This document shows positions 3 to 62,294 of a stretch of DNA of 64,000 bases, piece after piece (position 1 is the first letter of the stretch; every line of letters begins with the position of its first letter). Below the pieces are notes generated by a model. It did not search any database and was not told where the DNA came from. It was given only the letters and a program-made list of their open reading frames with translations. The DNA lies in the IMG/VR virus record IMGVR_UViG_3300010883_000001, positions 81,182 to 145,181 of that record, one strand, 5' to 3'. Both the position numbers and the translations under genes were made by a program. This DNA is from a virus.

Positions 3-335
3 TCTGATATGGTTGATGGATTGATTTTAGCTATGGGATCTGAGTATTTTGGGCCGATTAATTTAGGGAACCCAAATGAGATTACTGTTTCCAAGTTAAC
101 AAATATAGTATTAGAAAAATGTAATGCACGAAATGCTATTAATTATTACCCATTACCTCAGGACGATCCATGCATCAGGAGACCCAACATAAATAAAGCT
201 AAGTGGTTATTGGGGTGGGTACCCAAAGTTAGTCTAGATGAAGGTCTAGATAGGACGATACAATACTTTAGAGGTCTTTTACGTGTAGAACCTCAAGAAC
301 CATCATATAATTTAAAAATTGGTTATGAAAAATGA
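3..335 (+). CDS. UDP-glucuronate decarboxylase (UDP-xylose synthase)-like, 3' part only
   Basis: The reading frame is open to the window edge, so the N-terminus with the Rossmann fold and the YxxxK site is missing. The remaining ~110 residues read as the C-terminus of an extended SDR: SDMVDGLILAM, then NLGNPNEITVSKL, then DDPCIRRPNINKAKWLLGW and a final DEGLDRTIQYFR. The DDP-x-x-R-x-P-(D/N)-I-x-KAK-x-x-LGW block is the signature I know from UXS enzymes, which convert UDP-glucuronate to UDP-xylose. A related dTDP-glucose dehydratase is the alternative. The stop overlaps the ATG of the polymerase gene (ATGA), so it shares that operon. Confidence 0.75.
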   Translation, partial: SDMVDGLILAMGSEYFGPINLGNPNEITVSKLTNIVLEKCNARNAINYYPLPQDDPCIRRPNINKAKWLLGWVPKVSLDEGLDRTIQYFRGLLRVEPQEPSYNLKIGYEK

Positions 336-3300
336 AAAAAACACCCTCAAGATTCGTAGGTCTTCATGCACATTCTGGATTTTCTACATTTGATGGATTA
401 GGATACCCTCAAGAACATATTGATTATGTAAAATCAAATGGAATGGACTGTTGGGCACTTACTGACCATGGTCACATGAATGGTTTTGCACATGCTTATT
501 TACATGCTGAAAAATTAAAAAAGCTTGGTGAGAATTTTAAATTTATTCCCGGGTGTGAAATGTATGTTCATCCGGATTTAGATGTATGGAGTCTAGACTA
601 CAAGCTAGCCCGGGCGGCAAAGCGAGGTGATCATGAGTCGATCACAAAACTTAGACAGCAAAGGGAGTCCATAGTAACCCCTATTCTTGCAGTAACCGAT
701 CGCGATGATGAGATTATAGATGTTGATATAAATGAAGGAGGTATGACTGTAGAGAATGAGGAGGAGACTAAGTCTGCAAAATTTTATGATCCCGTTAAAC
801 GCCGGCATCATTTAGTTGTACTACCTAGAACTAGTGAGGGTTTAAAACGTTTATTTTCATTGGTCTCCAAAGGTTATCTTGAGGGATTTTATAGATTTCC
901 GCGTGTAGATTATAAGATGTTAAAAGAGGCCGCTAAAGGTGGTCATTTAATGCTTAGTACGGCATGCCTAGGAGGCCCCGTCGCATATGAAGTATTCAGG
1001 CATTTACAAGAAGTTTCATTTAATAATCTTAATGCTTCTCTTTTAGATGATAGATCATTAATGGAGAAGACAATCCTTGGTGTTGGAAATGCATATGGAT
1101 CACTGTGTGACGCAGTAGGGCGTGAGAACGTTATGCTTGAGTTACAGTTCAATAAACTCCCAGCTCAACATTTGGTGAATAGAGCTATACTTGAGTATTC
1201 TAGAAGAAACAATTTATCAGATCAATTAATAGTAACTTGCGACTCGCACTATGCAAATCCAGAACATTGGAAAGAGAGAGAATTATATAAGAAGTTAGGA
1301 TGGTTAAATTATCGTGATTATGATCCTTCTTCGTTACCACAAAGTCGCGACGATTTAGAGTGTGAATTATATCCGAAAAACGAAACACAGGTCTGGGATT
1401 CATATACAAATACATCTTCTGGGTATGATTTTTATAATGATGAAGAGATATGTAGCGCTATTGAGAGAACGCATGATATAGCACACGAAATGATAGGCGA
1501 TATCACAGCCGATAAAAAAATGAAGCTGCCGTCATATATAGTACCTCAAGGCACTGATGAAAACACGGCACTTCTAGAAGCTTGTAAAAAAGGATTAATA
1601 GAGAAGGGCTTACATGCTAACAATGAATATATAGACCGCTTAAAGCTAGAGCTCTCTGTAATACGCAGTAAGGATTTTTCTAGATATTTTTTGACGATGA
1701 AGTCAATTCTTGATATTGCAAGAGAACGCATGTTGATAGGACCGGGTCGAGGATCCGCAGCTGGTAGTCTGGTTGCATATGTACTTGGAATAACAAACGT
1801 TGATCCTATAGAATATGGATTATTGTTTGAAAGATTTTTATCTGTCCATCGTGAGGGCGCACCAGACATTGATACTGACGTAGGCGATAGGGATCTTCTG
1901 ATTGATCTACTCAAGGCAAATTTTGGTGATCAGAATGTTGTTCCTATTTCAAATTATAACACTTTTAAATTGAAATCATTAGTAAAAGATATATCACGTT
2001 TTTATGGTATACCCTTTGACGAAGTAAATAAGGCACTGGCACCGGTTGAGAATGACGTAAAAAAAGTAGTCTTTACAAAGGGTACCGACAAAAACCTTTT
2101 CGTGTTATTGTATGAAGATGCCATTGCACACTCGGCATCATTTCGAAGTTTTATTGAAAAGTATCCTGAGGTAGCTGAACCAATCGAAATTTTATTTAAG
2201 CAAAATAAGTCCTTGGGTCGACATGCTGGCGGAGTAATAATCAGTGAAAATATTCCGGAGCAGATGCCCTTGATACTCGCAAGGGGTGAGCTACAGACCC
2301 CTTGGGTCGAAGGGATGCATTATAAACATCTGGAAGAGTTTGGGTGGATTAAATTTGATCTTCTTGGATTAGAAACCCTACGAATAATCCAACGTTGTAT
2401 AGAGCTAGTTTTGAAGAGGCATGAGGGAAATGAGAACCCGACTTTTGTTGATGTGAAGAAATGGTTTGACCAAAACATGGATCCGAAAGTCATAGATTTT
2501 AATGATGAAGAAGTGTTTCGAAACATATATCATCAAGGAAAATGGGCTGGAATATTTCAGGCTACGCAACGAGGCGCACAGGCATTTTTTAAGAAAGGAA
2601 AGCCTTTGAGTATTATTGATGTTGCTACGCTTACATCAATTTATCGCCCAGGTCCGTTAAGTGCTAATGTGCATAAGATATATTTGGGATCAAAGGACAA
2701 TCCAGAAGATATAGATTATCAACATGATCTTATTAAACAGGTTCTGGAACCGACATATGGTGCGATAATCTTTCAAGAGCAAGTTATGGAGTTATGCAAC
2801 GTTGTAGCCGGTTTCCCTCAGGAAGACTGTGATAAGGTTCGTAGAACAATCATGAAGAGATCTGCGTCTAAGGCAGATGCTATGAAAGCCGAGGCTGAAG
2901 CTTTAAAGAACAGATTTGTTGAGGGTGCTGTCACAAATGGCGTGGCACAGGATGTTGCTAGCGAATTATATGAGAAAATCTTATTTTTCTCCGGATATGG
3001 TTTTAATAAATCTCATGCCGTATCTTACGCAGTTGATTCTTACTATTGCGCATGGTTGATGCACTACTATGAGGAGGAATGGCTGTGTGCTTATCTTGAG
3101 GCTATGTCAAGTACTCCGGATAAGTTGGCAAAAGCATCTAGCGAGATTAAAAAGCTGGGATATAAGACGGTACCTCTAGACATAAATTATGCTGAAAAGA
3201 CCTGGACAATATTAGACGGGAAGAAATTTATGCCATCATTCTTATCATGCAAAGGTATAGGACTAGCCGCAATCGACGAGATTATGAAAAATAGACCGTA

Positions 3301-3931
3301 TAGCTCAGTTGATGATTTACTATGGGATGAATCAGGTAAGTGGCGACATTCAAAGTTTAATAAGCGTGCGTTAGGCTCACTTATTCGTGTTTGTGCATTT
3401 GGGTCCATGGGCTTAGTTGGCGAAAGGAAGGCATTTTCTTCATATAAGCAGATGCACGAAATACTAATAGATAAAAACCAAGATATAAAAAAGTCAACAA
3501 GGAAAGATCCATGGAGAGGTAAAAAAGCAATGACTGAATTGCTGGTTGAATCAGATACTTCAAGCGAATGGACATCTTATGAGCTAGCAAAGAATAGTAT
3601 TGAGCTGTTGGGATCATTTAGTTCGAAATTACTAGTGGATGACGAGTTACAAAAAGAGCTACAAAAAAGAGGCATTCACACAATTGATGAATATCACTCA
3701 AAAGACCTATATTGGTTTATTGTAAAGAAGGCAATCCCAAAGTTGACAAAGAATAAAAAGCCGTATCTACTATTGACAATATCTGGTACTGAAGGATCGG
3801 AAAGTCGGATGTTCTACTGGGGATGGAATGGAAACACAGATATATCAGAGTTTTCAGTTTGTGTGGCAGAAATTGACAGGAGCGATTTTGGATTTTCAAC
3901 TAGATCCGGAAAGATAAAGGTAATTAGATAA
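332..3931 (+). CDS. dnaE: DNA polymerase III alpha subunit (DnaE-type replicative polymerase)
   Basis: This 1199-residue protein is a C-family polymerase, slightly longer than the ~1160 residues usual for bacterial DnaE. An N-terminal PHP domain starts with LHAHSGFSTFDG (residues 11-22) and TDHGHMNG. The PHP domain carries a long charged insertion after residue ~85. The palm holds LIGPGRGSAAGS (~469-480) and the metal-binding PDIDTD, with D512 and D514 matching E. coli D401 and D403. Later come SLGRHAGGVIIS, IYRPGPL, IFQEQVMELC and the fingers motif YGFNKSHAVSYA (~888). The C-terminal OB/tail region is short. It probably replicates the phage genome. It overlaps its neighbours by 1-4 bases on both sides and sits inside the sugar-nucleotide/modification operon. 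Confidence 0.95.
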   Translation: MKKTPSRFVGLHAHSGFSTFDGLGYPQEHIDYVKSNGMDCWALTDHGHMNGFAHAYLHAEKLKKLGENFKFIPGCEMYVHPDLDVWSLDYKLARAAKRGDHESITKLRQQRESIVTPILAVTDRDDEIIDVDINEGGMTVENEEETKSAKFYDPVKRRHHLVVLPRTSEGLKRLFSLVSKGYLEGFYRFPRVDYKMLKEAAKGGHLMLSTACLGGPVAYEVFRHLQEVSFNNLNASLLDDRSLMEKTILGVGNAYGSLCDAVGRENVMLELQFNKLPAQHLVNRAILEYSRRNNLSDQLIVTCDSHYANPEHWKERELYKKLGWLNYRDYDPSSLPQSRDDLECELYPKNETQVWDSYTNTSSGYDFYNDEEICSAIERTHDIAHEMIGDITADKKMKLPSYIVPQGTDENTALLEACKKGLIEKGLHANNEYIDRLKLELSVIRSKDFSRYFLTMKSILDIARERMLIGPGRGSAAGSLVAYVLGITNVDPIEYGLLFERFLSVHREGAPDIDTDVGDRDLLIDLLKANFGDQNVVPISNYNTFKLKSLVKDISRFYGIPFDEVNKALAPVENDVKKVVFTKGTDKNLFVLLYEDAIAHSASFRSFIEKYPEVAEPIEILFKQNKSLGRHAGGVIISENIPEQMPLILARGELQTPWVEGMHYKHLEEFGWIKFDLLGLETLRIIQRCIELVLKRHEGNENPTFVDVKKWFDQNMDPKVIDFNDEEVFRNIYHQGKWAGIFQATQRGAQAFFKKGKPLSIIDVATLTSIYRPGPLSANVHKIYLGSKDNPEDIDYQHDLIKQVLEPTYGAIIFQEQVMELCNVVAGFPQEDCDKVRRTIMKRSASKADAMKAEAEALKNRFVEGAVTNGVAQDVASELYEKILFFSGYGFNKSHAVSYAVDSYYCAWLMHYYEEEWLCAYLEAMSSTPDKLAKASSEIKKLGYKTVPLDINYAEKTWTILDGKKFMPSFLSCKGIGLAAIDEIMKNRPYSSVDDLLWDESGKWRHSKFNKRALGSLIRVCAFGSMGLVGERKAFSSYKQMHEILIDKNQDIKKSTRKDPWRGKKAMTELLVESDTSSEWTSYELAKNSIELLGSFSSKLLVDDELQKELQKRGIHTIDEYHSKDLYWFIVKKAIPKLTKNKKPYLLLTISGTEGSESRMFYWGWNGNTDISEFSVCVAEIDRSDFGFSTRSGKIKVIR

Positions 3932-8241: not shown

Positions 8242-9231
8242 TTGCATATTGTCTCTCATTCGTTTAACGACTGCTATAATCAGTTGGCGAAATATTTGTT
8301 AACAAGCGGGGAATATGATGTATCCCCTAGAGGCCAGAGGGTTAGAGAATCTTTATGCGTAAGTTTTAAGATTGAAAACCCTAGGGATAGACTAATCTAT
8401 AATCCGGCGAGAAAATTTTCTTTCACATATGTTATAGCGGAGATGCTTTGGTATATTTCTGGAAATAATAAAACGTCGTGGATATCTCATTATTCTAAAT
8501 TTTGGAATAAAATATCTGATGATGGTAAGACGGCCAACTCTGCATATGGTGCTAGGATATTTGAGAAAAATGAAAGAATCGCAGGATCCCAATTTATTCA
8601 GTGGGATTTTATAAAGGAGGAGTTAAGAAAAGATCCGGATTCTAGAAGGGCAATAATTCATATCCGCGTTCCGGAGGATTCTATAAAGGCAAAGCTTGAT
8701 GTCCCCTGTACAATATCAATACAATACTTTATAAGATCTGAAAAATTACATTGCATAGTCAATATGAGATCTTCTGACTTAATTTTAGGGATAAGCTACG
8801 ATATTCCTGCGTTCACATTTATGCAGGAGATGATGGCAAATGAATTGGGGGTTGATGTAGGCTCTTATATGCATGTCAGTAATTCATTGCATGTATACGA
8901 GAGACATTTTGATATGCTAGAAAAGATAGCATCAACAGAAAATATTAATAAGTCTTATTCATTAAGTTCAGGAGCTAGAAAACTTAAATTACCACAGGGT
9001 GATCTACCCATATATAGTTTAATGCAGTTTGAGGACGCTATGCGAAAAACCACCCATAATAAAACCGCATTAGATTTATTAGATTCATCGATTTGTTTAT
9101 TCGATGATTATTGGAATGATTGGCTACGAGCGCTAGCAGCGCATAGGGTTCTTAAAAATGGTGATAAACATCTTCACGATAATATATTATATAGGTGTGA
9201 TCGCTTGAGGGGGTGTTATGAGAGATCCTGA
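8242..9231 (+). CDS. Thymidylate synthase homologue with Asn-to-Asp switch: predicted dCMP hydroxymethylase/methylase
   Basis: The 329-residue protein has the ThyA fold. SPRGQRVRE is the phosphate-binding N-terminal loop, AEMLWYISG carries the catalytic Glu, DPDSRRAIIHIR holds the paired Arg, DVPCTIS carries the nucleophile Cys156, and LHVYERH gives the late His/Tyr. The base-reading motif is RSSDLILGISYDIPAF, so the residue equal to E. coli Asn177 is Asp187. The spacing from the Cys (31) is identical to E. coli. Asp at this site is known from T4 dCMP hydroxymethylase and selects cytosine over uracil. A separate ThyX gene in the window covers dTMP synthesis. The start is TTG at 8242 behind AGGGGAAAAAAA. 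Its last bases overlap tdk. Confidence 0.8.
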   Translation: MHIVSHSFNDCYNQLAKYLLTSGEYDVSPRGQRVRESLCVSFKIENPRDRLIYNPARKFSFTYVIAEMLWYISGNNKTSWISHYSKFWNKISDDGKTANSAYGARIFEKNERIAGSQFIQWDFIKEELRKDPDSRRAIIHIRVPEDSIKAKLDVPCTISIQYFIRSEKLHCIVNMRSSDLILGISYDIPAFTFMQEMMANELGVDVGSYMHVSNSLHVYERHFDMLEKIASTENINKSYSLSSGARKLKLPQGDLPIYSLMQFEDAMRKTTHNKTALDLLDSSICLFDDYWNDWLRALAAHRVLKNGDKHLHDNILYRCDRLRGCYERS

Positions 9232-24060: not shown

Positions 24061-25927
<1,867 letters not shown>

Positions 25928-26260: not shown

Positions 26261-27034
26261 ATGTCTGATATGTTACAACATTTTTTTAAAGAAGTGGGAA
26301 AATCGCCGCTTCTAACCAGAGAAGAAGAAGTTGAATTATCAAAAAGAATAGAAAAGGGTGACGCCAAGGCAAGGGATAGGATGATTAGATCTAATCTTCG
26401 CCTTGCAATTAGCATTGCAAAAAAATATCAAAACAAAGGCTGTTCATTGGAGGATTTAATTCAAGAATCCAGTATTGGTCTTATGAAAGCAGTAGAAAGA
26501 TTTGACTGGAGGAAGGGTTTTAAATTTTCTACTTATGCGTGTTGGTGGATTCGACAATCTGTTAGGCGTCATATTGCCAGTCATTCAAGCTCTATTAAGC
26601 TTCCTACATACGCAAAGAATATGTTATGGAAATCGAGGCAGATGTCGCTTGAGTATGAAAAAGAGTTTGGTGTAAAACCTACAAAAAAAGAGGTTGCTGA
26701 TCTATTAGGGGTATCCGTCTCTACAATTGACTCCATATTTGCGTGTTCCGGCCCTACAGATTCACTTGATAGAAATCTGAGCTATCGTTCTAGGCAAACA
26801 TCAAGAACATTAGCTGAAGTTCTAGTTGACGAAAATGCCTCTGGTGTTGATGATAAACTTGACAGTGCAACGCTTTTATCGTCAATTCGTGATGCTTTAG
26901 ACAGTCTTTCGGATCGCGAACAAAAAATTGTACGAATGAGATTTGGAATATCTGAGGATGATAATAATATTAAAAATTATCCTTTAAAAAAATCAGAGTT
27001 TGATAAAATTAAGTCTGCATCAGGAGTTAGTTGA
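26261..27034 (+). CDS. Sigma70-family factor lacking region 4.2
   Basis: The 257-residue protein has regions 1.2 to 4.1 of a primary-type or RpoH/RpoS-type sigma. LLTREEEVELSKRIEKGD is region 1.2, IRSNLRLAISIAKKYQNKG and LEDLIQESSIGLMKAVERF are 2.1-2.2, FKFSTYACWWIRQSVRRHI is 2.3-2.4 (conserved aromatics for melting and -10 reading), FGVKPTKKEVADLLGVS is region 3, and SLSDREQKIVRMRFGI is 4.1. The usual helix-turn-helix of 4.2 is replaced by a short tail ending SASGVS. Such a factor should rely on the -10 and extended -10. The next gene encodes a separate helix-turn-helix. Confidence 0.88.
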   Translation: MSDMLQHFFKEVGKSPLLTREEEVELSKRIEKGDAKARDRMIRSNLRLAISIAKKYQNKGCSLEDLIQESSIGLMKAVERFDWRKGFKFSTYACWWIRQSVRRHIASHSSSIKLPTYAKNMLWKSRQMSLEYEKEFGVKPTKKEVADLLGVSVSTIDSIFACSGPTDSLDRNLSYRSRQTSRTLAEVLVDENASGVDDKLDSATLLSSIRDALDSLSDREQKIVRMRFGISEDDNNIKNYPLKKSEFDKIKSASGVS

Positions 27035-28588: not shown

Positions 28589-29620
28589 ATGTCACATGAT
28601 CCTTACTATAGAGAGTTAGGTTTAAAATCCTCAGCATCAGACTCTGATATTAAAAAAGCTTATCGCAAGCTTGCAATGAAATATCATCCTGATAAGAATG
28701 AAGGCAATAAAGCGGCTGTAGAAAAATTTAAGAAAATTTCTCATGCATATGCAGTCCTAACTGGAAAAGAATCACCTGAAAATGATGCATCAAACTTTAA
28801 TCCATTTGCTCATGGCACTGGATTAGATGATATATTTAAAGAGTTTTTTGGTGGTTTCAGCACCGGTTTTGCAAGAGACTTTTCAGATTTTGAGAGGCCC
28901 CAGACCAGACCACGCCGCGATCTAGATATTCATAGCAACATAAATATTGATTTTCTAGATGCAGTTAGAGGTTATGACAGCGTAATAAGTGTAAATACAA
29001 ATAAAACATGTAACCCATGCCAAGGTACTGGTTCTGATGGCGGTCATTTAGTTTCATGTGAAACGTGTGACGGAACAGGGTCTAGCGTAATACGTAGGGG
29101 TCTTATGGTGATTCGGCAGGCATGTCCGTCCTGCGCTGGTAGTGGTCGTCAACCGGCATCATTATGTAGAATATGCTCTGGCCGTGGTTTTGGTACCGGC
29201 CTAACAGAGGTTCGTGTTACGATTCCTCCAGGAGTAGACTCAGGAAATATTTTAAGAATGGTTGGGCTTGGAAACGAATTCTTAGGATCTGTTGGAGATC
29301 TTTTTCTTCAAATTGGTGTTGGAGATTCATCGGAGTTTTCTAGGGATGGATATAATATTTCTTCAACATATGATTTGAAGTATACTGATTTTATCCTGGG
29401 CGCAAGAGAGAATATAAAAACAATATACGGTAATATCTCAGTAACAATCCCCCCAAATACTAGGCCTGACAGTAAATTAAAAATCTCAGGTAAAGGTATC
29501 ACAAACCCATCTACGGGTGCAAGAGGGGATCATTTTTTAAGGTTAAAAGTATCCGTACCTTCGCACATAACAGATAAGCAACGAAGCGCTATCATGGTGT
29601 TAAGAGGTTTAGGGTTGTAA
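28589..29620 (+). CDS. dnaJ: DnaJ (Hsp40) co-chaperone
   Basis: The 343-residue type I DnaJ has an N-terminal J domain with His33-Pro34-Asp35 in KYHPDK, a short Gly/Phe region (FFGGFSTGFARDF), four CxxCxGxG-type zinc modules (CNPCQGTG, CETCDGTG, CPSCAGSG, CRICSGRG) and the two-lobed C-terminal substrate domain. No DnaK is encoded in the window, so it must use the host DnaK. With GroEL, Hsp20 and SlyD it completes an unusual folding set. Confidence 0.93.
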   Translation: MSHDPYYRELGLKSSASDSDIKKAYRKLAMKYHPDKNEGNKAAVEKFKKISHAYAVLTGKESPENDASNFNPFAHGTGLDDIFKEFFGGFSTGFARDFSDFERPQTRPRRDLDIHSNINIDFLDAVRGYDSVISVNTNKTCNPCQGTGSDGGHLVSCETCDGTGSSVIRRGLMVIRQACPSCAGSGRQPASLCRICSGRGFGTGLTEVRVTIPPGVDSGNILRMVGLGNEFLGSVGDLFLQIGVGDSSEFSRDGYNISSTYDLKYTDFILGARENIKTIYGNISVTIPPNTRPDSKLKISGKGITNPSTGARGDHFLRLKVSVPSHITDKQRSAIMVLRGLGL

Positions 29621-30633: not shown

Positions 30634-31242
30634 ATGATTAAGCTTCATGTAAAGCTACCGCACAGATTTAATCTAGCGCTTAGTGGTGGCCCTGATTCTA
30701 TGTCTGCACTTGATTTTTTTTGTAGAGGCCACCGCGACTTTAAGTGTATATACTTCAACCATAAAACAAAGCATTCAGTAGAGGCAGTTCAGCACGTTGT
30801 AAAAGAGTGTAAGAATAGGGGTGTTGAATTAATTATAAGTGATATTGATACAACATTAATAGACAAGGCAAAAAGCCTGGAGGCTGAGTGGAGAAAGCAG
30901 AGAATAGCATTTTTTAATTCTTTTAATGAAGATATAATAACCGCACATAATTTAAACGATGTTGTTGAGTGGTGGATGTTTACTTCGCTGCACGGAAACC
31001 CTAGACTAATACCTACTAGAAACAAAAATATATTGAGACCCTTTTTGACAACTTCAAAAGATGATTTTCTTAAGTGGAATAAAAAAAATGATGTTAAGAC
31101 AGTTTTAGATCCGGGGAATACAAATAGAGACTTTATGCGTACAATAATAAGGCATGATATGATGCCACATGTATTAAAAATTAACCCGGGTATCGGAAAG
31201 GTTTTGAGGAAGAAAATCATGAGAATTAAAAATGAAGCTTAG
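30634..31242 (+). CDS. TilS-like N-type ATP pyrophosphatase (tRNA-Ile lysidine synthase-like)
   Basis: ATG 30634 gives 202 residues, about the length of the TilS catalytic domain alone. LALSGGPDSMSAL (Ser17-Ser22) is the PP-loop, YFNHKTKHS the second strand, and ITAHNLNDVVEWWMF followed by ILRPFL matches TilS's HHADDQ-x-E and RPLL segments. Full TilS adds C-terminal tRNA-binding domains, which are absent here. TilS changes the CAU anticodon of tRNA-Ile2 to read AUA. A CAT-anticodon tRNA with Ile2-like features is encoded at 59555, which supports the call. No good RBS is seen. Confidence 0.72.
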   Translation: MIKLHVKLPHRFNLALSGGPDSMSALDFFCRGHRDFKCIYFNHKTKHSVEAVQHVVKECKNRGVELIISDIDTTLIDKAKSLEAEWRKQRIAFFNSFNEDIITAHNLNDVVEWWMFTSLHGNPRLIPTRNKNILRPFLTTSKDDFLKWNKKNDVKTVLDPGNTNRDFMRTIIRHDMMPHVLKINPGIGKVLRKKIMRIKNEA

Positions 31243-32260
31243 ACAAGCGTTATGTTTTGATGATGTTCTTTTAGAACCTAGGTTTTCAAGTATTTGTTCA
31301 AGATCAGATATATCTTTAGAGTTTAAGCTAAGAAATTTATCTCATACTTTCTCTCTTCCTGTATTTTCTAGCCCAATGGATACAGTTACGGAAGACAAGA
31401 TGGCTTATGGGATGTATAGGGCTGGTGGGCTAGGTATTATCCACAGATATAATACTATAGATGAACAGGTGGTGCATGTGAATTCAGTGTGTGCCTCAAA
31501 GACAGCACACGTTGGCGCGGCCATAGGGGTTTCAGGTGACTTTGAAGAAAGGGCATGTGCTGTATACGATGCCGGTGCCCGCATAATTTGTATAGATGTT
31601 GCTCATGGCCACCATATGCTAGTAAAAGAAGCACTCAGTTGCCTGCGGACTACGTTCGGCAACAACATTCATATAATGGCTGGCAATGTTGCTACTATAG
31701 ATGGGTTTAATGACTTGGCTGATTGGGGCGCTGATAGTATTCGAGTTGGTATAGGCGGAGGATCAATATGTTCAACTAGAATACAAACAGGTCATGGTAT
31801 ACCCACTTTACAAAGCGTGTTTGACTGTGCTAGATCTGATAGGCATGTTTCTATTATTGCTGATGGAGGGATTCGGAGTAGTGGTGATATCGTAAAGTGT
31901 CTGGCCGCCGGCGCCGATGCTGTTATATGTGGTTCACTATTAGGTAGGACGTCCGCTGCCCCGGGTGCACGATTTGTCGACGCTTCGGGAAATGAATATA
32001 AACAATACAGAGGAATGGCCTCTATAGAGGCCCAGATTGACTGGAGGGGTCATTCATCATCGGTTGAAGGGGTAACATCAAACGTTATGATACAAGGCAC
32101 GTTAGATGATGTCTTGGCAGCACTTGAGAGAGGCATAAGATCAGGTTTATCATATAGCGGGTGTACAACGTTAGATAAATTTAGGGCTAGCGCAAGGTTT
32201 ATAAACTCATCGACACTTTCGTCTGCTGAAAACGATACTCATATTTTTACACGTAAATGA
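31232..32260 (+). CDS. IMP dehydrogenase / GMP reductase family enzyme
   Basis: The 342-residue TIM-barrel protein lacks CBS domains, as GMP reductases do. It has TFDDVLL-type [13 protein letters not shown] at the start, [23 protein letters not shown], the catalytic loop [18 protein letters not shown] with the nucleophile Cys, and [27 protein letters not shown] is nearer to IMPDH (YRGMGS) than to GMPR (FYGMSS). I therefore cannot decide between the two activities. Either would adjust guanine nucleotide pools. It overlaps the TilS-like gene by 11 bases. Confidence 0.88.
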
Positions 32261-38893: not shown

Positions 38894-39385
38894 ATGACTA
38901 AGAAAGAAGATGGGACGGTTGTTGGTTTTACGTGTGGATCTTTTGATTTGATGCATGCAGGGCATGTTCTTATGTTCGAAGAGTGTAAAAAATATTGTGA
39001 TAAGCTCGTAGTTGGTGTACAATCAGATCCATCAGCTGACAGGCCTGAGTCAAAGAATACACCCATCCAGACTTTTGTCGAGAGAATTTTGCTAGTAAAG
39101 TCAGTGAGATGGATTGATGACGTTATACTTTATCATACCGAGGAAGATCTTTATAGAATATTAGAGGAATTGAAACCCAGCGTTAGGATAATTGGCGAAG
39201 ACTGGAGGGATAAAGAGTATACAGGTCATAATTTACCTATTGATGTTATTTTTAATTCTAGATCCCATACATACTCAACTAGCGAATTGAGGGAAAGGGT
39301 TTATGATAGAGAAAAAAAGAAAAAAGATAAAGAGAAAAATGTAGGTCTATCTCATGGTACCGGTTTACCTACAGGAAGCGATTAG
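38894..39385 (+). CDS. Cytidylyltransferase-like nucleotidyltransferase (TagD/RfaE-type)
   Basis: In this 163-residue protein, VGFTCGSFDLMHAGHVLMF contains the HxGH signature (His21-His24), and YSTSELRERV matches the ISTTxxR segment of the family. SVRWIDDVILY and VRIIGEDWRDKEY are also usual for glycerol-3-phosphate cytidylyltransferases. It joins a sugar or polyol phosphate to a nucleotide. The C-terminal ~20 residues are Lys-rich. It overlaps the region upstream of ThyX. Confidence 0.85.
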   Translation: MTKKEDGTVVGFTCGSFDLMHAGHVLMFEECKKYCDKLVVGVQSDPSADRPESKNTPIQTFVERILLVKSVRWIDDVILYHTEEDLYRILEELKPSVRIIGEDWRDKEYTGHNLPIDVIFNSRSHTYSTSELRERVYDREKKKKDKEKNVGLSHGTGLPTGSD

Positions 39386-39389
39386 TTTT

Positions 39390-40115
39390 ATGAAAATAGA
39401 TGATGCCGCCGAAGTGAACCGGCAATACTTATATCACGATAATGATGGATTTGTTGAATATGTCCAACACATGGGTGATGATGCCACAATCGTTAATGCA
39501 GCCAGGGTTTCTTTTGGTAAACAGGTGGCTGAGTTATCTAATAAAGACAAAAAATTGATTAAATACCTTGTAGCGCATAAGCATACGTCTACTTTAGAAC
39601 ATAATGTTTTAACAATGCGGTTTAGGGTACCCTTGTTTGTTGCGCGGCAACATATGAGGCATCGTACTTGGAGTTTTAATGAAATTTCTCGTAGATATAC
39701 AAGCATTGATATGTCAATGTACGAGCCAGACATGTTCAGGGTTCAACATTCTCAGAATAGACAGGCATCCGAAGATGATGGGTTGATTAATCCCTTATGC
39801 GTGTCGACAACAGCATATGATATTGGGATATCCGGCTCAGCGTCAAGTCTAGTAAAGAGACACCACAAATCATCAATGTTACTGTATGAGTCTTTAATGC
39901 AAGCCGGTGTTTGTAGGGAACAGGCCCGCGGAGTTCTACCTCAAAATATGTATACAGAATATTTGGGAACAGTCAATCTAAATAATCTGATCAAATTTAT
40001 ACATTTGCGTATCCATGAGGGTGCACAGTGGGAGATAAGAAGGGTTGCTGAGTCTTGTTACCATATAGCTAGCTCTTTGTGGCCGGATGTTATGAAATGT
40101 GCGGTGAAAAATTAA
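39390..40115 (+). CDS. thyX: Flavin-dependent thymidylate synthase
   Basis: ATG 39390 gives 241 residues. The ThyX signature RHRx7S is perfect: Arg90-His91-Arg92 and Ser100 in RHRTWSFNEIS. SRRY follows as usual, and ARGVLPQNMYTEYLGTVNL is the FAD/dUMP-binding C-terminal segment. It makes dTMP from dUMP, using dCMP deaminase output. Its presence frees the ThyA-like enzyme at 8242 for another reaction. Confidence 0.95.
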   Translation: MKIDDAAEVNRQYLYHDNDGFVEYVQHMGDDATIVNAARVSFGKQVAELSNKDKKLIKYLVAHKHTSTLEHNVLTMRFRVPLFVARQHMRHRTWSFNEISRRYTSIDMSMYEPDMFRVQHSQNRQASEDDGLINPLCVSTTAYDIGISGSASSLVKRHHKSSMLLYESLMQAGVCREQARGVLPQNMYTEYLGTVNLNNLIKFIHLRIHEGAQWEIRRVAESCYHIASSLWPDVMKCAVKN

Positions 40116-44706: not shown

Positions 44707-44788
44707 TTAGAGACCCCAATTAACAAACATTCATTAGAATACTATTTTTATAATATTGCTATAGCTTTATTTGGAGACAGTACCATCA

Positions 44789-47074
44789 ATGAAAAACGTA
44801 ATTTTATTTCTTGTTACTCTTGCGTTTCTTGTGTCGTGCAAGGATGAGACGCCGGCGGGACAAGGTGCAGATGATCAGGAGCTCCCCCCTCGATTATCAT
44901 CTGACAATCCAGATGCTTCTCTAGAGCCAGATGTTCATATTTTAGACTGGCAACCCTCACTCCCTCCGGAGCCTGAGCTCACGCGTGAAGAACGCTGTGC
45001 ACAGATACCGGTTATCGAGACTCAAGAATATTGCCTGTGTTTTCCACAATGTTGTGATAACCAGAGGTGGTACTGCCCACCAAACCCCCGTCAGACAATA
45101 GACGTAATGCAGGTCGTTGTTGAGATTTGTGATGAGAATAAGGTACCTTGCATATTTGGGATTGACCCGGGTTGTCCGCCACCTGAAATATTATCACGAG
45201 GTGAATGCATCACACAGTGGGAGTGCCCTCCGGGAACAATCGGCGAGTTTATACGCTGGTTTGAATGCCAGCTTGAGGATGGTACGTTGGGTAGACAACA
45301 GATTATTTGTGACAAGGGCAATTTGCAACACATGCCTTGTCATCCATGTGATCCGGAGGTCTGTGACGATGAGGACAATGATTGTGATAACATCATTGAT
45401 GAAGGTAGATTTCCATGTGAGACGCAGTGTGGCGAAGGGTGGGGTTTTTGCATAGAAGGGCAAGTTGTTGATTGTAATGCGGCGAATCCTGGTGAGGAAA
45501 GATGTAATTTCCTAGATGATGACTGTGATGGCACCATTGATGAGGGTCAGAGGAATGCATGTGATGAATGTGGCCCATTATCCATAGACATATGTGATGG
45601 TGCAGATAATGACTGTGATGGTACTGTTGATGAAGAGTTAGTTCGGGAATGTGAAACTGCATGTGAAAGAGGTATCGAGACATGCGAAAATGGTAACTGG
45701 ATATCGTGTACGGCACAACAACCGGTTGATGAAGTGTGTGACGGCGCAGACAATGATTGTGACGGTCGGATTGATGAGCAACTAGATTGCCTATGTACGA
45801 TCCAGGACGTAGGAAATCTAATGCCTTGCTCAGAGCCACCGTTATTGTGTGGTCAGGGATTTAAGACATGCGAGTGTGTAGATCCGGATTGTCATGAGTT
45901 GAGAGTGACAGAGTGTGCAGCGTTATGTACGTATGTACCCCAACCACCTCCATGCGATCCTAGGGTTGGGATTGCTTTGGGGCAAGAAGAGTGTAATAAT
46001 TTTGATGAAGACTGTGATGATCTAATTGATGAGGGTTTGAGACAGGCATGTTATACCGGTGAGCCAGAAACACTACTTACGGGTGTTTGTATTCCGGGTG
46101 AAGTATATTGTGATAGGGGTACCTGGGGAAATGATAGAAATAATGCATTTGATCCAGGATATTGTTCCGGAGAAGTAACGCCTAGCGAAGAGATCTGTGA
46201 TGGAGCCGATAACGATTGTGACGGTGAGATCGATTACGGAGAAGAGATAAGGGATACTGATATTTTATTTATTGTCGACTGGTCTGGATCAATGGATCAG
46301 GAAATAGAGGCAGTTAAGATTGCATTGAATAGATTTGCACAGCATTTTGAGGCTGAGATACCACTTCAGTGGGGGTTGGTGGTTGGGCCAAAAGCATTTC
46401 CACATGCAGTTGGTCATGAAACGTTAGTATTAGTTTCAAATATATCTCCATTTGATCAATTCTTAGCTGCATTTGCGGCTTTGGGAAATGAAGGCATGTC
46501 CACCGGTAATGAGATGTTGCTGGACGCAATTTATTTTGCCGTAAGGAATATCTCTGGTAACGCCAATATAGACATTGCTGCGCTACAGTGGAGACGGAAT
46601 GTCGATTCAATCCCGGAGAAAGAAAATTTTAATATTACCTGGCGCCCAGATGCTGATAGGATCATCATTGTATTTACGGATGAGGCTGAGCAGTCTTATT
46701 TGGATCCTCAAATTACAAAACTTCATGTCGAAGATGCTTTAAGAGCAGGTATAAATCTTAAATTATACACATTTTCAATTCCTCTTATCGGAAATTGGGA
46801 AGAAATTTCTCAGGCCGGAAATGGATCTAGTTTCCCACTGTCAGATAATGCAGTTGTTATGTATAATGATCTAATGTCTATCATCGATGAAGCATGCCTC
46901 CCTAAACCGGCTAATCAACCTCAACCGGCTGCTGCAGATATTGGTGATGGGTCGGCAAGGATGTACATCACAAATTATTATGCTAATTTTTATGTAGGTG
47001 GATATGTACGCACTATTAACGAATATTCAGCCTACGATAAATATTATGATTATCATATAATGGAGTGTCGTTGA
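44789..47074 (+). CDS. Lipoprotein with MopE-type repeats and von Willebrand A domain (1)
   Basis: ATG 44789 gives 761 residues. The signal peptide ends in LVSC (lipobox, Cys17), so it is probably lipid-anchored to the envelope. A Cys-rich region precedes six copies of the C-D/N-x-x-D-N/D-DCDG-x-I-D-E motif (first EVCDDEDNDCDNIIDEG near 45360, last EICDGADNDCDGEIDYG near 46195). These are PF11617-type metal-binding repeats, common in secreted Myxococcota proteins. The C-terminal VWA domain starts DILFIVDWSGSMD (MIDAS DxSxS), with IIIVFTDEAEQS later. It is a paralogue of the next gene. A role in host surface change, attachment or exclusion is inference. Confidence 0.85.
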   Translation: MKNVILFLVTLAFLVSCKDETPAGQGADDQELPPRLSSDNPDASLEPDVHILDWQPSLPPEPELTREERCAQIPVIETQEYCLCFPQCCDNQRWYCPPNPRQTIDVMQVVVEICDENKVPCIFGIDPGCPPPEILSRGECITQWECPPGTIGEFIRWFECQLEDGTLGRQQIICDKGNLQHMPCHPCDPEVCDDEDNDCDNIIDEGRFPCETQCGEGWGFCIEGQVVDCNAANPGEERCNFLDDDCDGTIDEGQRNACDECGPLSIDICDGADNDCDGTVDEELVRECETACERGIETCENGNWISCTAQQPVDEVCDGADNDCDGRIDEQLDCLCTIQDVGNLMPCSEPPLLCGQGFKTCECVDPDCHELRVTECAALCTYVPQPPPCDPRVGIALGQEECNNFDEDCDDLIDEGLRQACYTGEPETLLTGVCIPGEVYCDRGTWGNDRNNAFDPGYCSGEVTPSEEICDGADNDCDGEIDYGEEIRDTDILFIVDWSGSMDQEIEAVKIALNRFAQHFEAEIPLQWGLVVGPKAFPHAVGHETLVLVSNISPFDQFLAAFAALGNEGMSTGNEMLLDAIYFAVRNISGNANIDIAALQWRRNVDSIPEKENFNITWRPDADRIIIVFTDEAEQSYLDPQITKLHVEDALRAGINLKLYTFSIPLIGNWEEISQAGNGSSFPLSDNAVVMYNDLMSIIDEACLPKPANQPQPAAADIGDGSARMYITNYYANFYVGGYVRTINEYSAYDKYYDYHIMECR

Positions 47075-47090
47075 GACCAAGGATATATTA

Positions 47091-49397
47091 ATGAATATTA
47101 GATTATGTATGGCAATTTTTTTATTGATTGGATGCGAGGATTCAACGATTTCACAATCCCCGATGAAGAGAGATGCTTCACGATCTGAGGCAGGCCTAGG
47201 CCTATTATTACAAGACGTTAATATACCAGGTGAACAGTTAGATGTTATGATTATACGCCAGTGGGATGCAAGACAACCGGTTATTGATGCTATTGTTGAC
47301 GCTGCTCCCCCGGAGGTTTGCGAGAGACTTGGTCTTAGAGAACCATGTCAAATAGAGGGTTTGTCTGGACCCTGTGCCATAGGTGTTAAGATATGCAATG
47401 TTACAAGCTGGTCAGGATGTAACCCGATCAGCTTTTCCAGAATAGAAATATGTGATGCTATTGACAATGATTGTGACGGCCGGCTAAACGAGGCGCCTCA
47501 TGGGTTAGCTGATGAACAGCTACCGCCGCAACACCCAATATTGTTTCGTAGTTGTTATACTGGTCCTGCTGGTACATCAAAGGAGGGAACATGCGCACCG
47601 GGTATATCAGTCTGTATGGAAATGAGAAGGGATACTGATGCAGGTGTTGAAGTGTATTATGACTATGGCACATGTGAACAGCAAATAATACCATCTGAAG
47701 AAGAGTGTGATTTATTTGATAACGACTGTGATGGCCAGACGGACGAGGGTGTCTTAAATGTCTGTAGCGAATGTGCACCTGATCCTATTGAGGTATGCGA
47801 TGGTCTCGGCATTGATGAGGATTGTGATGGTTTGATCGATGAAAATTTGTTGAACGTCTGTGGTGAATGTGGTGATGATCCCATTGAAGTTTGTGATGGC
47901 GTTGATAATAATTGTGATGGAAATATAGATGAGGAGCTTTTAAATGACTGTGGCGAATGTGGTGACGTGCCTCATGAGTTGTGTGATTTTGTTGACAACG
48001 ATTGTGATGGAAATGTAGACGAAGATTTTGCTAATGAGGTATGTGCATGTGATCACCCAGATTACGTTCCTCAGCCAGAAATATGTAATGGCGCCGACGA
48101 AGACTGTGATGGGTTTATAGACGAAGGGCCGGATGGTGGCCCTTTATCTAGATTATGCTCTACAGATTTAATGACAAATGAAATTATAACATATGACAGG
48201 CGAGAAGATGGTCCACAATATGTTGCTGGCGAATGTCGTCTAGGAATATCCCTCTGTGAATTGGGTCGAAATGCTGCCGGCGAGATGCAGCGTGGATATT
48301 ACGGATGTTTGCAAGAGATACGGCCTGGGGTTGAAAGGTGCAATGAGATTGATGATGACTGTGACGGAAATGTAGACGAAGATTTCATGCAGGGTAGTGT
48401 TGCTGTCATGATGGTCGTTGACGTATCTGGCTCCATGGATCAGGGTGAGCTACAGGCAGCTTTTGATGCTACTAGAAATTCAGTCCAAAGATTATTTAAC
48501 GATGGGGTTGTCGACGTATGTTATATGCTAGCAGTTGTCGGTAATAATGATATGCCTGATCCATACTTGTTTTACCCTGGAGATACGTGCGTTCCTGGTG
48601 TTGAAGATCCGCGAGTAGTCCCGATTGAAGATATGTCTAACGCGGTAAATACTTTGAGATTGAATTTGTTAGCTGGCATTATTAATCAGGGTGGCGCAAC
48701 AGAGAATACTTTGGATGCTATAGGTAGGTTCCTTACAGATGATCTGATCGATTGGGATAATGATGGTATACCAGAAAATATTCTGTGGAGTACTAATCGT
48801 CCTGCAGCTCAGATTCAAGGAATCCAAGATGCATGGGATGTAGACCTCAGCCAGTATACACATCGTATTGTTGTAGTGATAGGCGATGAGCCGGCCCAGG
48901 GAGCTGAATGGGGTAACCATGATGCAGCTCGAGCCATGGCTTGGGCCAATGGTATGGTTTTCATAATAGGTACTCAGCAAAATATTTGGAGCTATCAACC
49001 GCTAATCGATTTCGGTGCTGTTCATTCCGACGGGTTAGATGGATTTGGTGCACAGAATGCCCAGCAGATATCTGATGCCGTTACTGAGGCCATTGAAGAG
49101 GCAGCCTGTATTAACAGAGGCCAGGAAGAACAAGAGCATGAAGAGATACCTGGGGAACAGGCAAAAAATATTAGTTTGCCAAATACGTTTTTAGCTAATA
49201 TCAATCAAGCACATGATAAGATTATGAACGTACTTGTATACTCATGCGAAAACTGTGATTTTTTTAAAGATGATTATTTTATGAAGAACATTTTTCATAA
49301 TAATAAACCTGCTAGTAATACCGCAGAGTTTTATTATACGCATAATCAATGTTTAAATGTCAAGCCTGAACAATCTGTCATTTATACGTTTGATTAA
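47091..49397 (+). CDS. Lipoprotein with MopE-type repeats and von Willebrand A domain (2)
   Basis: The 768-residue paralogue of the previous protein has the same domain order. The lipobox is LLIGC (Cys15). About seven repeats follow (for example EVCDGVDNNCDGNIDEE and ERCNEIDDDCDGNVDED), and the VWA domain begins AVMMVVDVSGSMDQG with an intact MIDAS and later IVVVIGDEPAQGAEW. A tail with paired Cys (SCENCDFFKDD) ends the protein. AAGGA precedes the ATG, 17 bases after the first copy. The 3' end overlaps a convergent gene by 45 bases. Confidence 0.85.
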   Translation: MNIRLCMAIFLLIGCEDSTISQSPMKRDASRSEAGLGLLLQDVNIPGEQLDVMIIRQWDARQPVIDAIVDAAPPEVCERLGLREPCQIEGLSGPCAIGVKICNVTSWSGCNPISFSRIEICDAIDNDCDGRLNEAPHGLADEQLPPQHPILFRSCYTGPAGTSKEGTCAPGISVCMEMRRDTDAGVEVYYDYGTCEQQIIPSEEECDLFDNDCDGQTDEGVLNVCSECAPDPIEVCDGLGIDEDCDGLIDENLLNVCGECGDDPIEVCDGVDNNCDGNIDEELLNDCGECGDVPHELCDFVDNDCDGNVDEDFANEVCACDHPDYVPQPEICNGADEDCDGFIDEGPDGGPLSRLCSTDLMTNEIITYDRREDGPQYVAGECRLGISLCELGRNAAGEMQRGYYGCLQEIRPGVERCNEIDDDCDGNVDEDFMQGSVAVMMVVDVSGSMDQGELQAAFDATRNSVQRLFNDGVVDVCYMLAVVGNNDMPDPYLFYPGDTCVPGVEDPRVVPIEDMSNAVNTLRLNLLAGIINQGGATENTLDAIGRFLTDDLIDWDNDGIPENILWSTNRPAAQIQGIQDAWDVDLSQYTHRIVVVIGDEPAQGAEWGNHDAARAMAWANGMVFIIGTQQNIWSYQPLIDFGAVHSDGLDGFGAQNAQQISDAVTEAIEEAACINRGQEEQEHEEIPGEQAKNISLPNTFLANINQAHDKIMNVLVYSCENCDFFKDDYFMKNIFHNNKPASNTAEFYYTHNQCLNVKPEQSVIYTFD

Positions 49398-49952
49398 TTT
49401 ACTGTGCTTTTTTGTCCATCCTGAAAACTGCTTACCTTCATGATCCGGATCACCATGTACATCATTCAATTTCCAGATAATGACGTGTATTAATTCGTGT
49501 ATTAATGAAGAAGTCCAGATTTGACTAGTCTTAATCTCAACCCAGATTTGACTTTTTGATAATGCTAATCCACTAACATATGGATTTTTTAATTTTTTTC
49601 CGTTTTTATCATATGCGGACGGTACTATTTTTGGTATTATACTAACTTCTATTCGCAAGCCTCTTAACATTTCCCAAACTAATAATTCCGAAGTTTCAAA
49701 TGTATTAGAGTATTCTTCTACAAAAATATGAATTGCTTTTGATAATTTTTGCTTATTGAATATATAGTCATCACATCGTTCAGGGTGCATTATAATACCT
49801 GGTGTGGCAGGTATTATTTTTTCTATCTCTTGATCCTTTGTACAGTCATATTTTTCAACACTATGTTTTTTGCTATATGATGTACATGAAGGTATTACCA
49901 TCATTAAAATGATGCACGGAATTGATATTGTTGTGAATTTTCGATTTATCAT
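49353..49952 (-). CDS. Lipoprotein with HExxH metallopeptidase motif
   Basis: The 199-residue minus-strand product has a lipobox (VIPSC, Cys23) and HELIHVIIW (His152-Glu153-His156), followed by DVHGDPDHEG, which could supply the third zinc ligand as in SprT-like or M-class peptidases. It would sit in the envelope facing the periplasm or surface. Its location back to back with the MopE/VWA lipoproteins suggests a joint envelope function. Confidence 0.6.
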   Translation of the reverse strand: MINRKFTTISIPCIILMMVIPSCTSYSKKHSVEKYDCTKDQEIEKIIPATPGIIMHPERCDDYIFNKQKLSKAIHIFVEEYSNTFETSELLVWEMLRGLRIEVSIIPKIVPSAYDKNGKKLKNPYVSGLALSKSQIWVEIKTSQIWTSSLIHELIHVIIWKLNDVHGDPDHEGKQFSGWTKKHSKLIKRINDRLFRLDI

Positions 49953-53384: not shown

Positions 53385-54863
53385 ATGGAAATTTTAGAAC
53401 ACCAATCAAGAGATATATTGCTTAAGTGGGCAATAGATTATGAAGAAGCCAGAATTTCTAGTACCGGTGCATTAGTTGTTCAGACCGGTATACATACCGG
53501 CAGATCTGCCGGCGCAAAAAGAATTGTTTTTGATGAGATAACAAAAGATAAAGTCAATTGGAATGATAATAAAAAAATTATGCCAAATGACTTTCATGAG
53601 ATAAAATCTTCAATGTTAACCCGCCTAGATGTCGGTGAGGGTACGGTTTTTAAACAAGAGCTTTTTGCTAATAATGATACAAAGAACCAGCTTAAGTTGA
53701 ACGTTTATACTACGTTAGCATGGCACTCAATATTTTCGAAAAATATGTTTGTAGAAAAATCTGCTCTAGGGTTTCATGATAGCGACGCAGATGAGTGGGA
53801 TCTATATTATTTTCATGATCATCTTTCATCACCGAGTGTCTTAATTTCATTTACGGAAAAAGCAATATTGATATCTGGTACCATGTATGCTGGTGAAATG
53901 AAAAAATCTGTCTTTACTGTCTTAAATTTCTGTTTACCTAATAAAGGCGTTTTACCAATGCATTGCTCTGTCAATGTTAGCAAGGCTGGAGATTCTAGTG
54001 CAATATTTTTTGGTCTTTCCGGAACGGGAAAGACGACCCTAAGTTCTGACGTTAGGCGTGATCTTGTAGGCGATGATGAACATTCATGGTCGGATACTGG
54101 ATTATATAATTTTGAAGGGGGTTGTTACGCAAAAGTTATTAACCTGTCTAAGAGTGATGAACCGCAAATTTGGGATGCCGTAAATTCAGATTTTTCTATA
54201 CTTGAAAATGTTGTTTTTGGTAATGACGATACTCCTAATTTTGATGATGACTCCATTACGCAGAACACGCGTGGATCTTATCCAATATCATCTATAAGTA
54301 ATTTCGTCGAATCGTGTTCTGCCGGCCACCCTACGAACGTTATTATGTTGACATGTGATGCATTTGGTGTACTCCCTCCCGTTTCGAAGCTTTCATATGA
54401 TGATGCAATCTCTCATTTTCTTCTAGGGTATACGGCCAAGGTTGCTGGTACTGAAGTAGGAATAGTTGAGCCAGAAGTTACATTTTCTTATTGTTATGGT
54501 GCTCCCTTTATGCCATTATCTCCAGGTGTATATGGTGATCTATTACGAGATAAATTAGTGGAACATAATCCCAATTGCTGGTTGGTTAATACCGGATGGA
54601 CAGGCGGGCCTTACGGTGTGGGATCTAGGATGCCAATATCACTTACAAGAAGTATAATTGATGCTATTCATGATGGGACGTTGGCTAATTGTTCAACTAC
54701 CCTACATGACTATACGGGTTTACGGATCCCCGTGGGTCACGATTTAATAGAGCAAAATCTATTATTTCCGGAAAAGACGTGGAATGATAAAGAGATGTAT
54801 ATTGCGGAGGCAGCTGGCCTTATGACATTATTTGATCATAAGCGCCACTTTTTGAGAATCTAA
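53385..54863 (+). CDS. pckA: ATP-dependent phosphoenolpyruvate carboxykinase
   Basis: The 492-residue protein is somewhat shorter than the ~540 residues of E. coli PckA, but its active site looks complete. GIHTGRSAGAKR holds the substrate Arg, GEMKKSVFTVLNF the metal-binding Lys pair region, LPMHCSVNV the metal His, GLSGTGKTTLS (210-220) the kinase-1a P-loop, GDDEHSW the kinase-2 acidic pair and NTRGSYPI the gamma-phosphate Arg. GTEVGIVEPEVTFSYCYG and NTGWTGG follow. It makes PEP, CO2 and ADP from oxaloacetate and ATP. This is very unusual in a phage. Its codon use is as AT-rich as its neighbours, so it is long resident rather than newly acquired. Confidence 0.93.
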   Translation: MEILEHQSRDILLKWAIDYEEARISSTGALVVQTGIHTGRSAGAKRIVFDEITKDKVNWNDNKKIMPNDFHEIKSSMLTRLDVGEGTVFKQELFANNDTKNQLKLNVYTTLAWHSIFSKNMFVEKSALGFHDSDADEWDLYYFHDHLSSPSVLISFTEKAILISGTMYAGEMKKSVFTVLNFCLPNKGVLPMHCSVNVSKAGDSSAIFFGLSGTGKTTLSSDVRRDLVGDDEHSWSDTGLYNFEGGCYAKVINLSKSDEPQIWDAVNSDFSILENVVFGNDDTPNFDDDSITQNTRGSYPISSISNFVESCSAGHPTNVIMLTCDAFGVLPPVSKLSYDDAISHFLLGYTAKVAGTEVGIVEPEVTFSYCYGAPFMPLSPGVYGDLLRDKLVEHNPNCWLVNTGWTGGPYGVGSRMPISLTRSIIDAIHDGTLANCSTTLHDYTGLRIPVGHDLIEQNLLFPEKTWNDKEMYIAEAAGLMTLFDHKRHFLRI

Positions 54864-57205: not shown

Positions 57206-57643
57206 ATGAGCAAGGTTATTGTTGAAGGAAGCGTTGTGAGTGTTCATTATCGAGGTACGCTCAATGATGGATCACAGTTTGATAGTTCGTATGACAGGGA
57301 TGAGCCAATTGGTTTTACGGTAGGTTCCGGTCATATGATTTCTGGATTTGAAGATAATGTTTTAGGTATGAGCGCAGGAGAAAAAAAGACTATAGTGCTT
57401 AAGCCAGAATCGGCATATGGTGATAGAGATGAAACCAGGATTCAGGAGATTAATAAGTCAAATTTTCCTCCGGATTTTAAGTTTATTGAGGGTGCATTTG
57501 TGCATGGTGAGACCATGAATGGCGAAGAGATTTTGGGTAAGATCACCGGTGAAAAGGAAGATGATATTGTTGTTATTGATTTCAATCATCCATTAGCCGG
57601 CCTTGAGTTGAATTTTGAAATTGAGGTTGTTGGAGTGCAATAA
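57206..57643 (+). CDS. SlyD-like FKBP peptidyl-prolyl isomerase
   Basis: The 145-residue protein has VVSVHYRGTLNDGSQFDSSY and IGFTVGSGHMISGFEDNVLG of the FKBP domain, an inserted-flap domain in the SlyD position (residues ~70-120) and the closing NHPLAGLELNFEIEV. The His-rich metal tail of E. coli SlyD is absent. It catalyses prolyl isomerisation and can act as a chaperone. Strong AAGGAGG precedes the start. Confidence 0.9.
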   Translation: MSKVIVEGSVVSVHYRGTLNDGSQFDSSYDRDEPIGFTVGSGHMISGFEDNVLGMSAGEKKTIVLKPESAYGDRDETRIQEINKSNFPPDFKFIEGAFVHGETMNGEEILGKITGEKEDDIVVIDFNHPLAGLELNFEIEVVGVQ

Positions 57644-61286: not shown

Positions 61287-62294
61287 ATGGGAAGTTTAGT
61301 TGCTGATGTTGTTGTAGGACTTCAGTTTGGTGATGAAGGAAAAGGGAAGGTGAGTCATCATCTTGCTAAGACCGGTGAATATACACATGTGTTAAGATTC
61401 AATGGAGGATGCAATGCCGGTCATACGATCTATCATGAGGGAAAAAAGTTTGTGACGCATCATATTCCATGTGGGGTATTTTTTGGAATAAAATCTATAA
61501 TAGGCCATGGGTGTGTTCTGAACATAAAACAGTTTATGTCCGAGATTGACGAATTAGAGAGAAACGGGATTAACGTAAAGCCGCTGATAGGTATTGCTTC
61601 ACATACTAACGTAATAACAGACTTCCACGTCGCACAAGATTCTAGGGATACAAAGATAGGAACGACCAAGAGAGGAAACGGGCCGGCATATAGAGACAAG
61701 TACGCAAGAAAAGGATTGTTAGCAATTGAAGTACCGGAACTGGCTGAATACATAGTTGATCTATACACTGAGTTTCATGATAATCCTGAATTTGAGGATG
61801 TTAAGGTTCTGTGTGAAGGTGCACAAGGGTTCGGTTTGGATATAGATTGGGGTGACTACCCATATGTTACTTCAAGTCATTGTACAGCTGGTAGCGTGAC
61901 TCTAAACGGTATTACTTGTGGTTCCATTAGGAATGTGTGGGGAGTTGCAAAGGTTTATTCAACATATGTTGGCGCAAAGCAGTTTGAAGGTCAAGATCCA
62001 GATTTTGAGAAGTTGAGAAAAATCGGTGATGAGTTTGGATCTACAACTGGCCGGCCTAGACAAATTGATTGGCTAGACATGGATATGATAAAAATGGCAG
62101 TAAAGATTAATGGCGTGAATAAGCTCGTTTTTAATAAAGTGGATATCCTTGAAGAACTGGGCATATGGAGACTATATTCTGGGCCGTCTGTTGAAGAGTT
62201 TAATGATGCCAAGACCATGCACGAATTCATACTATCAGAATTATCAGATAGAGATATTGAGACTATGTTCTCGTGTAGTCCTTATGAGATTTAG
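61287..62294 (+). CDS. purA: Adenylosuccinate synthetase-family enzyme, short form
   Basis: The 335-residue protein is about 100 shorter than E. coli PurA and near the size of archaeal and phage forms. GLQFGDEGKGK holds the catalytic Asp16 (E. coli Asp13), GGCNAGHT the His41 equivalent, IGTTKRGNGPAY the IMP loop, VTSSHCTAG the aspartate region, TGRPRQIDWLD the Arg loop, and FNKVDIL the GTP-base NKxD. In phage PurZ (2-aminoadenine genomes) the catalytic Asp is, as I recall, replaced. Here it is kept, so ordinary PurA or a PurZ0-like intermediate is likelier. AGGAG precedes the start. Confidence 0.85.
   Translation: MGSLVADVVVGLQFGDEGKGKVSHHLAKTGEYTHVLRFNGGCNAGHTIYHEGKKFVTHHIPCGVFFGIKSIIGHGCVLNIKQFMSEIDELERNGINVKPLIGIASHTNVITDFHVAQDSRDTKIGTTKRGNGPAYRDKYARKGLLAIEVPELAEYIVDLYTEFHDNPEFEDVKVLCEGAQGFGLDIDWGDYPYVTSSHCTAGSVTLNGITCGSIRNVWGVAKVYSTYVGAKQFEGQDPDFEKLRKIGDEFGSTTGRPRQIDWLDMDMIKMAVKINGVNKLVFNKVDILEELGIWRLYSGPSVEEFNDAKTMHEFILSELSDRDIETMFSCSPYEI

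Follow-up and report, generated by a model that had tools for sequence, protein, structure and literature searches.

Two adjacent genes, A and B, lying in the final 64 kb of a viral record of 145 kb (the whole stretch of 64,000 nucleotides analysed, here called the window), encode putative lipoproteins in which a MopE-type Cys-rich region is followed by a VWA domain, and both belong to a family found in many uncultivated phages. We read A and B, with roughly an even chance of being right, as MIDAS-dependent binding proteins on the envelope of the infected cell, where they would cover, bind or remodel host surface partners.

Gene A (44789–47074, plus strand), delimited by ORF calling, Pfam, alignment and inspection of the start site, encodes a MopE-VWA lipoprotein of 761 amino acids. 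The mechanical ORF spans 44771–47074 and opens at a TTG (44771), but the ATG at 44789 is most likely the start, since a GGAG sits 12 nt upstream of it. The short hydrophobic signal peptide carries the lipobox LVS/C (44789–44839; LVSC followed by K), the Cys of which was invariant in the alignment of 18 members (A1). The Cys-rich region (45347–46240) contained, by motif count and Pfam, six MopE-type cores (C..xDNDCDG..DE) and matched PF11617 at 2.6e-16 and 60 bits (cut-off 27). The VWA domain (46253–46900), with the MIDAS sequence DWSGS and a conserved FTDE, was delimited by Pfam, alignment, AlphaFold2 and Foldseek. Its score against PF00092 (E = 7e-4, 20.3 bits) was slightly below the curated cut-off of 23.8, and the VWA (Rossmann-like) fold was confirmed by prediction: the AlphaFold2 model gave a pLDDT of mostly 80–92 across residues ~496–709, and Foldseek matched it best to the I domains of integrin beta and to the A domains of ANTXR2 and VWF (E ~1e-6 to 1e-5). 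A variable linker and the C-terminal sequence ..YDYHIMECR (46901–47071) complete the protein.

Gene B (47091–49397, plus strand), preceded by AAGGA 8 nt upstream of its start, encodes a MopE-VWA lipoprotein of 768 amino acids which ORF calling, Pfam, alignment and the VWA tree place in a second ancient subfamily. Its short hydrophobic signal peptide has the lipobox LIG/C (47091–47135; LIGC followed by E), with the Cys invariant in the alignment of 11 members (A2). Seven MopE-type cores were found by motif count and Pfam in the Cys-rich region (47451–48395), which matched PF11617 at 1e-27 and 96.5 bits (cut-off 27); all 11 B-type members matched this family. Both scores greatly exceed the cut-off, so the repeats of A and B are well beyond chance. 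The VWA domain of B (48396–49118; Pfam, alignment and profile comparison), with the MIDAS sequence DVSGS and a conserved GDE, was matched in Pfam by PF13519 alone (E = 0.013, 16.5 bits, cut-off 27) and, the structure model of B being poor (pLDDT 41), was assigned by its profile kinship with A. The alignment of relatives delimited a variable tail (49119–49394) with ..HNQCL and 13 extra residues absent in the relatives. At the end of the gene (49317–49397), 13 codons follow ..HNQCL before the stop codon, unlike in the relatives, which suggests the loss of an ancestral stop codon.

A and B share one layout (signal peptide with lipobox, acidic or Pro-rich tether, MopE Cys-rich region and VWA domain) and a comparison of their profiles showed them to be homologous (E = 1.6e-41, with 32% identity across 410 columns). 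In agreement with the initial annotation, two genes of about 765 residues were thus found, with lipoboxes, six or seven repeats and VWA domains that keep DxSxS as well as the later Asp of the MIDAS. Their description as tandem paralogues held as far as homology is concerned; a recent tandem duplication is ruled out, since the deepest fork of the VWA tree separates A from B (support 100/99).

Single-sequence scans gave 38 relatives, and a VWA profile search gave 193 IMG/VR contigs, the best 80 of which were taken for analysis of loci (E-values of the contig scans are relative to the candidates only). These 193 viral contigs encoding the VWA domain contradict the earlier view that the architecture is not one of phages. 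In the loci examined, at least one MopE-type motif was present in all 139 complete members and a lipobox, counted with a simple, conservative pattern, in 98 of them. Among the 104 distinct complete members, DxSxS occurred in all and the later Asp-Glu (DE) in 103, so the binding residues appear to be retained despite large divergence; the MIDAS Thr/Ser position was matched by a simple pattern in 73. This conservation across many divergent phages bears out the earlier argument that the genes must matter. In the VWA tree A was placed among the A-types, nearest to L037, L032, L288 and L030, and B formed a supported group with L001, L002, L003 and L015. Most records carry one type, and five (L005, L011–L013 and L225) carry a B-type and a short A-type; the window was the only place among the loci examined where both are full length. 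No PHROG was matched by A or B, and no relative of B was found in isolate phages among ~50,000 phage records searched. A core gene of the whole capsid clade was also rejected, as none of 20 capsid relatives had a MopE match in a search that does give one in the genome of the window.

Many members end in a variable linker followed by a hydrophobic residue, Cys and an aromatic residue. The total number of Cys was odd in 28 of 29 tailed members and mixed in the untailed ones (15 odd, 21 even). A role of the C-terminal Cys as a free thiol or a sorting tag was considered, but the residue is better explained as a by-product of gene overlap: its codon supplies, in 37 of 48 tailed members, the TG of the ATG, GTG or TTG which opens the overlapping next gene. 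The window (gene A), L030 and a small number of other loci have lost that next gene, and there the terminal Cys is taken to be what is left of its start. A diversity-generating retroelement acting on the variable tail was rejected, since no reverse transcriptase (RVT_1) was found in 26 records, including the genome of the window.

Genes for a T4-like terminase, portal, major head protein and tail sheath are located in the remainder of the 145-kb record, and the closest isolate terminases (~39–43% identical) were those of Flavobacterium phage immuto and a Microcystis phage. The VWA gene of many relatives occupies a fixed slot, in the order DnaB-like helicase, class II ribonucleotide reductase, GroES-like gene, VWA gene, two genes of unknown function, DnaE and IMPDH (slot order and neighbour counts are from ORF calls without curated gene starts), that is, in the replication cluster and apart from the virion genes. 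A slot survey with the second of the two unknown genes as bait gave 69 informative loci: the slot held a VWA gene in 19, an SLT lytic transglycosylase but no VWA gene in 22, and neither of them in 28; these and the other locus counts include near-identical contigs and depend on the contigs sampled, and viral records may be incomplete. Since just 19 of the 69 loci carry it, the VWA gene is accessory and not core. Outside this survey, an SLT gene was found directly upstream of the VWA gene in 17 loci. The downstream slot gene was absent from the searched parts of the genome of the window phage, and A and B have moved out of the ancestral slot.

A partner gene absent from the initial annotation (49353–49952, minus strand) is convergent with B and overlaps it by 45 bp. 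As judged by Pfam, alignment and the loci of relatives, it encodes an SprT-like, metalloprotease-like lipoprotein with the motif HELIH and the lipobox IPS/C; its match to PF10263 had E = 0.0014 and 18.9 bits (cut-off 25.6). In 15 other loci the gene immediately after the VWA gene encodes an SprT-like lipoprotein, and in one branch the VWA gene is followed, at 3–240 bp, by a gene for a 178–205-residue lipoprotein with an invariant HExxH (SprT-like; HELVH). HExxH was invariant in nine aligned members, together with D..DHE and a later His. The partnership is not universal, an SprT-like gene being present in one of 36 further phage records searched. In record G029 the SLT and SprT-like genes are ~1 kb apart. 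All these neighbours are predicted to act on, or be located in, the envelope, which supports an envelope role for the VWA protein.

Besides the domains, conservation, gene associations and separation from virion genes observed in these contigs, we infer lipidation, display in the outer leaflet, ligand binding and a biological effect of A and B. The proteins would be made in the infected cell as phage-encoded envelope lipoproteins, with the N-terminal lipid as the anchor, and the acidic, Pro-rich tether and the disulfide-rich, metal-binding MopE stalk would present the C-terminal VWA domain. By analogy with integrins and the myxobacterial adhesin CglB, the VWA MIDAS is expected to use a divalent cation to bind an acidic ligand. 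The VWA lipoprotein would be part of an envelope-acting set made up of lytic transglycosylase, VWA lipoprotein and zinc-protease-like lipoprotein. The outcome could be, for example, the exclusion of a second phage or a change in adhesion, both of which are speculative.

Several known systems offer partial parallels. CglB is a Myxococcus VWA outer-membrane lipoprotein mediating substrate binding, and CglB and CglD, of Myxococcus xanthus gliding, combine lipidation and a VWA domain as A and B do (PMC13104615, PMC4488436); these are cellular proteins at the outer membrane, and the likeness appears to concern the MIDAS region, neither the order of the MopE stalk nor a wider kinship being in evidence. 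Llp, an outer-membrane lipoprotein of T5, both blocks FhuA and excludes superinfection (PMC9586334). Llp and the T1-type Cor, like A and B, are phage-encoded lipoproteins, in their case located in the outer membrane and made during infection (PMC9586334), but they are small and have neither VWA nor MopE, and the llp gene lies beside that for the receptor-binding protein. A and B, with 761 and 768 residues and genes that are not among tail genes, are far larger than these known exclusion lipoproteins, which is a point against the surface-display model. The best Foldseek matches of A, the integrin beta subunits, also join a MIDAS domain to Cys-rich repeats; with ~12–16% identity in the structural alignments, this is a general likeness of VWA folds only.

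The phage lipoproteins known to change the host surface are small proteins that block receptors. A family of ~700-residue MIDAS proteins that many uncultivated T4-like phages carry, and whose recurrent neighbours act on the envelope, would represent a different route to host-surface change. More tentatively, this widespread new phage family may cause infected bacteria to present integrin-like adhesins on their surface. In some phages a membrane-anchored metalloprotease and a lytic transglycosylase would join them, and the whole would form a dedicated system for remodelling the surface and controlling who binds the infected cell (second phages, sister cells, prey or particles).

The same neighbours could point to lysis, with the VWA lipoprotein, the transglycosylase and the protease-like lipoprotein dismantling the envelope late in infection, somewhat like an outer-membrane spanin lipoprotein that aids an endolysin. 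An SLT gene that immediately precedes the VWA gene in 17 loci and stands alone in the slot in 22 of 69, the adjoining protease-like lipoprotein gene and the proximity of both partners in G029 speak for such a module, but most full VWA-bearing records, including that of the window, had no SLT match, a 700-residue MIDAS protein is unlike a spanin, and the genes lie among replication genes, so that this reading is unlikely. T4-like virions commonly bear large multi-domain proteins, and VWA-MIDAS domains are binding modules; the proteins might then be carried in the particle and help the phage to hold host or particle surfaces. We consider this distinctly unlikely, given signal peptides with lipoboxes, which send a protein to the host envelope, and the distance of the genes from those for terminase, capsid, sheath and tail. 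Metal capture, in which the MopE repeats would supply the infected cell with scavenged calcium or copper and the VWA domain would serve for docking, might be suggested by the six or seven Asp-rich metal-type repeats per protein and by the metal-cofactor-dependent reductase (class II, B12) adjacent in relatives; it is very unlikely, as calcium-stiffened stalk repeats are the closest likeness of the repeat, the VWA gene had no transporter gene beside it, and the copper label in Pfam is a family name only. That the genes are host-derived passengers kept by chance, as an accessory distribution at one slot might hint, is already disfavoured and highly improbable, with the signal peptide, cysteines and DxSxS conserved over deep divergence and no close cellular source found in the genomes sampled.

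The search of host genomes for the source, proposed with the initial annotation, covered two bacterial phyla as a loose first look. Run against 379 Myxococcota genomes, the VWA profile picked up mostly likeness limited to the MIDAS and one near full-length match, on a 34.9-kb contig of a Myxococcota MAG (G260). Its candidacy as a full-length myxobacterial homologue was rejected: this contig (loci L368 and L371) is a phage contig, because several of its other genes match the phages studied here (up to 61% identity) and an SprT-like neighbour is present. No match at 1e-20 was found in 395 Bacteroidota genomes or in the 90 other genomes of the class of that MAG, and in the Myxococcota and Bacteroidota sampled no full-length cellular source was found. 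A and B were therefore not acquired recently from any sampled host genome. A scan of genome contigs gave mainly MopE-region matches, mostly in Myxococcota or Deltaproteobacteria MAGs. Proteins with both domain types do occur in such MAGs, but the domain order is usually reversed, with the VWA domain N-terminal, before the repeats, in four of five. Those of L052, L053, L057 and L058, also exported, have the VWA domain near the N-terminus, and the phage VWA domains gave no blastp match to them.

The family also gives a concrete handle on finding the hosts of these phages. Lipoprotein starts of the form C-x-D, and a closest terminase from a Flavobacterium phage, pointed to a Bacteroidota host, which was rejected on Shine-Dalgarno usage: an SD-like site precedes 57% of the genes of the window phage versus 16% in a control stretch, which argues against a Bacteroidota-type host, the corresponding values in the Flavobacterium phage being 8% and 15%. 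The DAG-type linkers of some members resemble linkers of Myxococcota lipoproteins. This resemblance, the Shine-Dalgarno use and, as weak evidence, the MAG-binned phage contig make a Myxococcota or Myxococcota-like host plausible. The presence of that contig in a Myxococcota MAG may be a host hint or a binning error.

Other genes of the window, all on the plus strand where indicated (+), include a full-length ATP-type phosphoenolpyruvate carboxykinase (53385–54863, +; PF01293, 3e-171), with a 48% identical relative in L030 (13373–14821), and a member of the adenylosuccinate-synthetase family (61287–62294, +; PF00709), the best PHROG of which is a 2-aminoadenylosuccinate synthetase family. IMPDH (31232–32260) and a DnaE-type polymerase (332–3931) are also encoded, and the product of 61287–62294 could be the PurZ of a diaminopurine-DNA phage. 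GroEL, DnaJ and a sigma-70-type factor are encoded at 24252–25904, 28589–29620 and 26261–27034 (+), respectively, and, by eye, the ORF at 57206 resembles an FKBP isomerase and that at 60128 a small heat-shock protein. This one phage genome also encodes two unrelated thymidylate synthases, ThyA-like by PHROG (8242–9231, +) and ThyX (39354–40115, +). In L040 (6087–7982), the major head protein has 631 residues and its isolate relatives align in two pieces covering about two thirds of it, which may reflect an inserted domain; relatives of this protein are encoded by at least 598 viral contigs.
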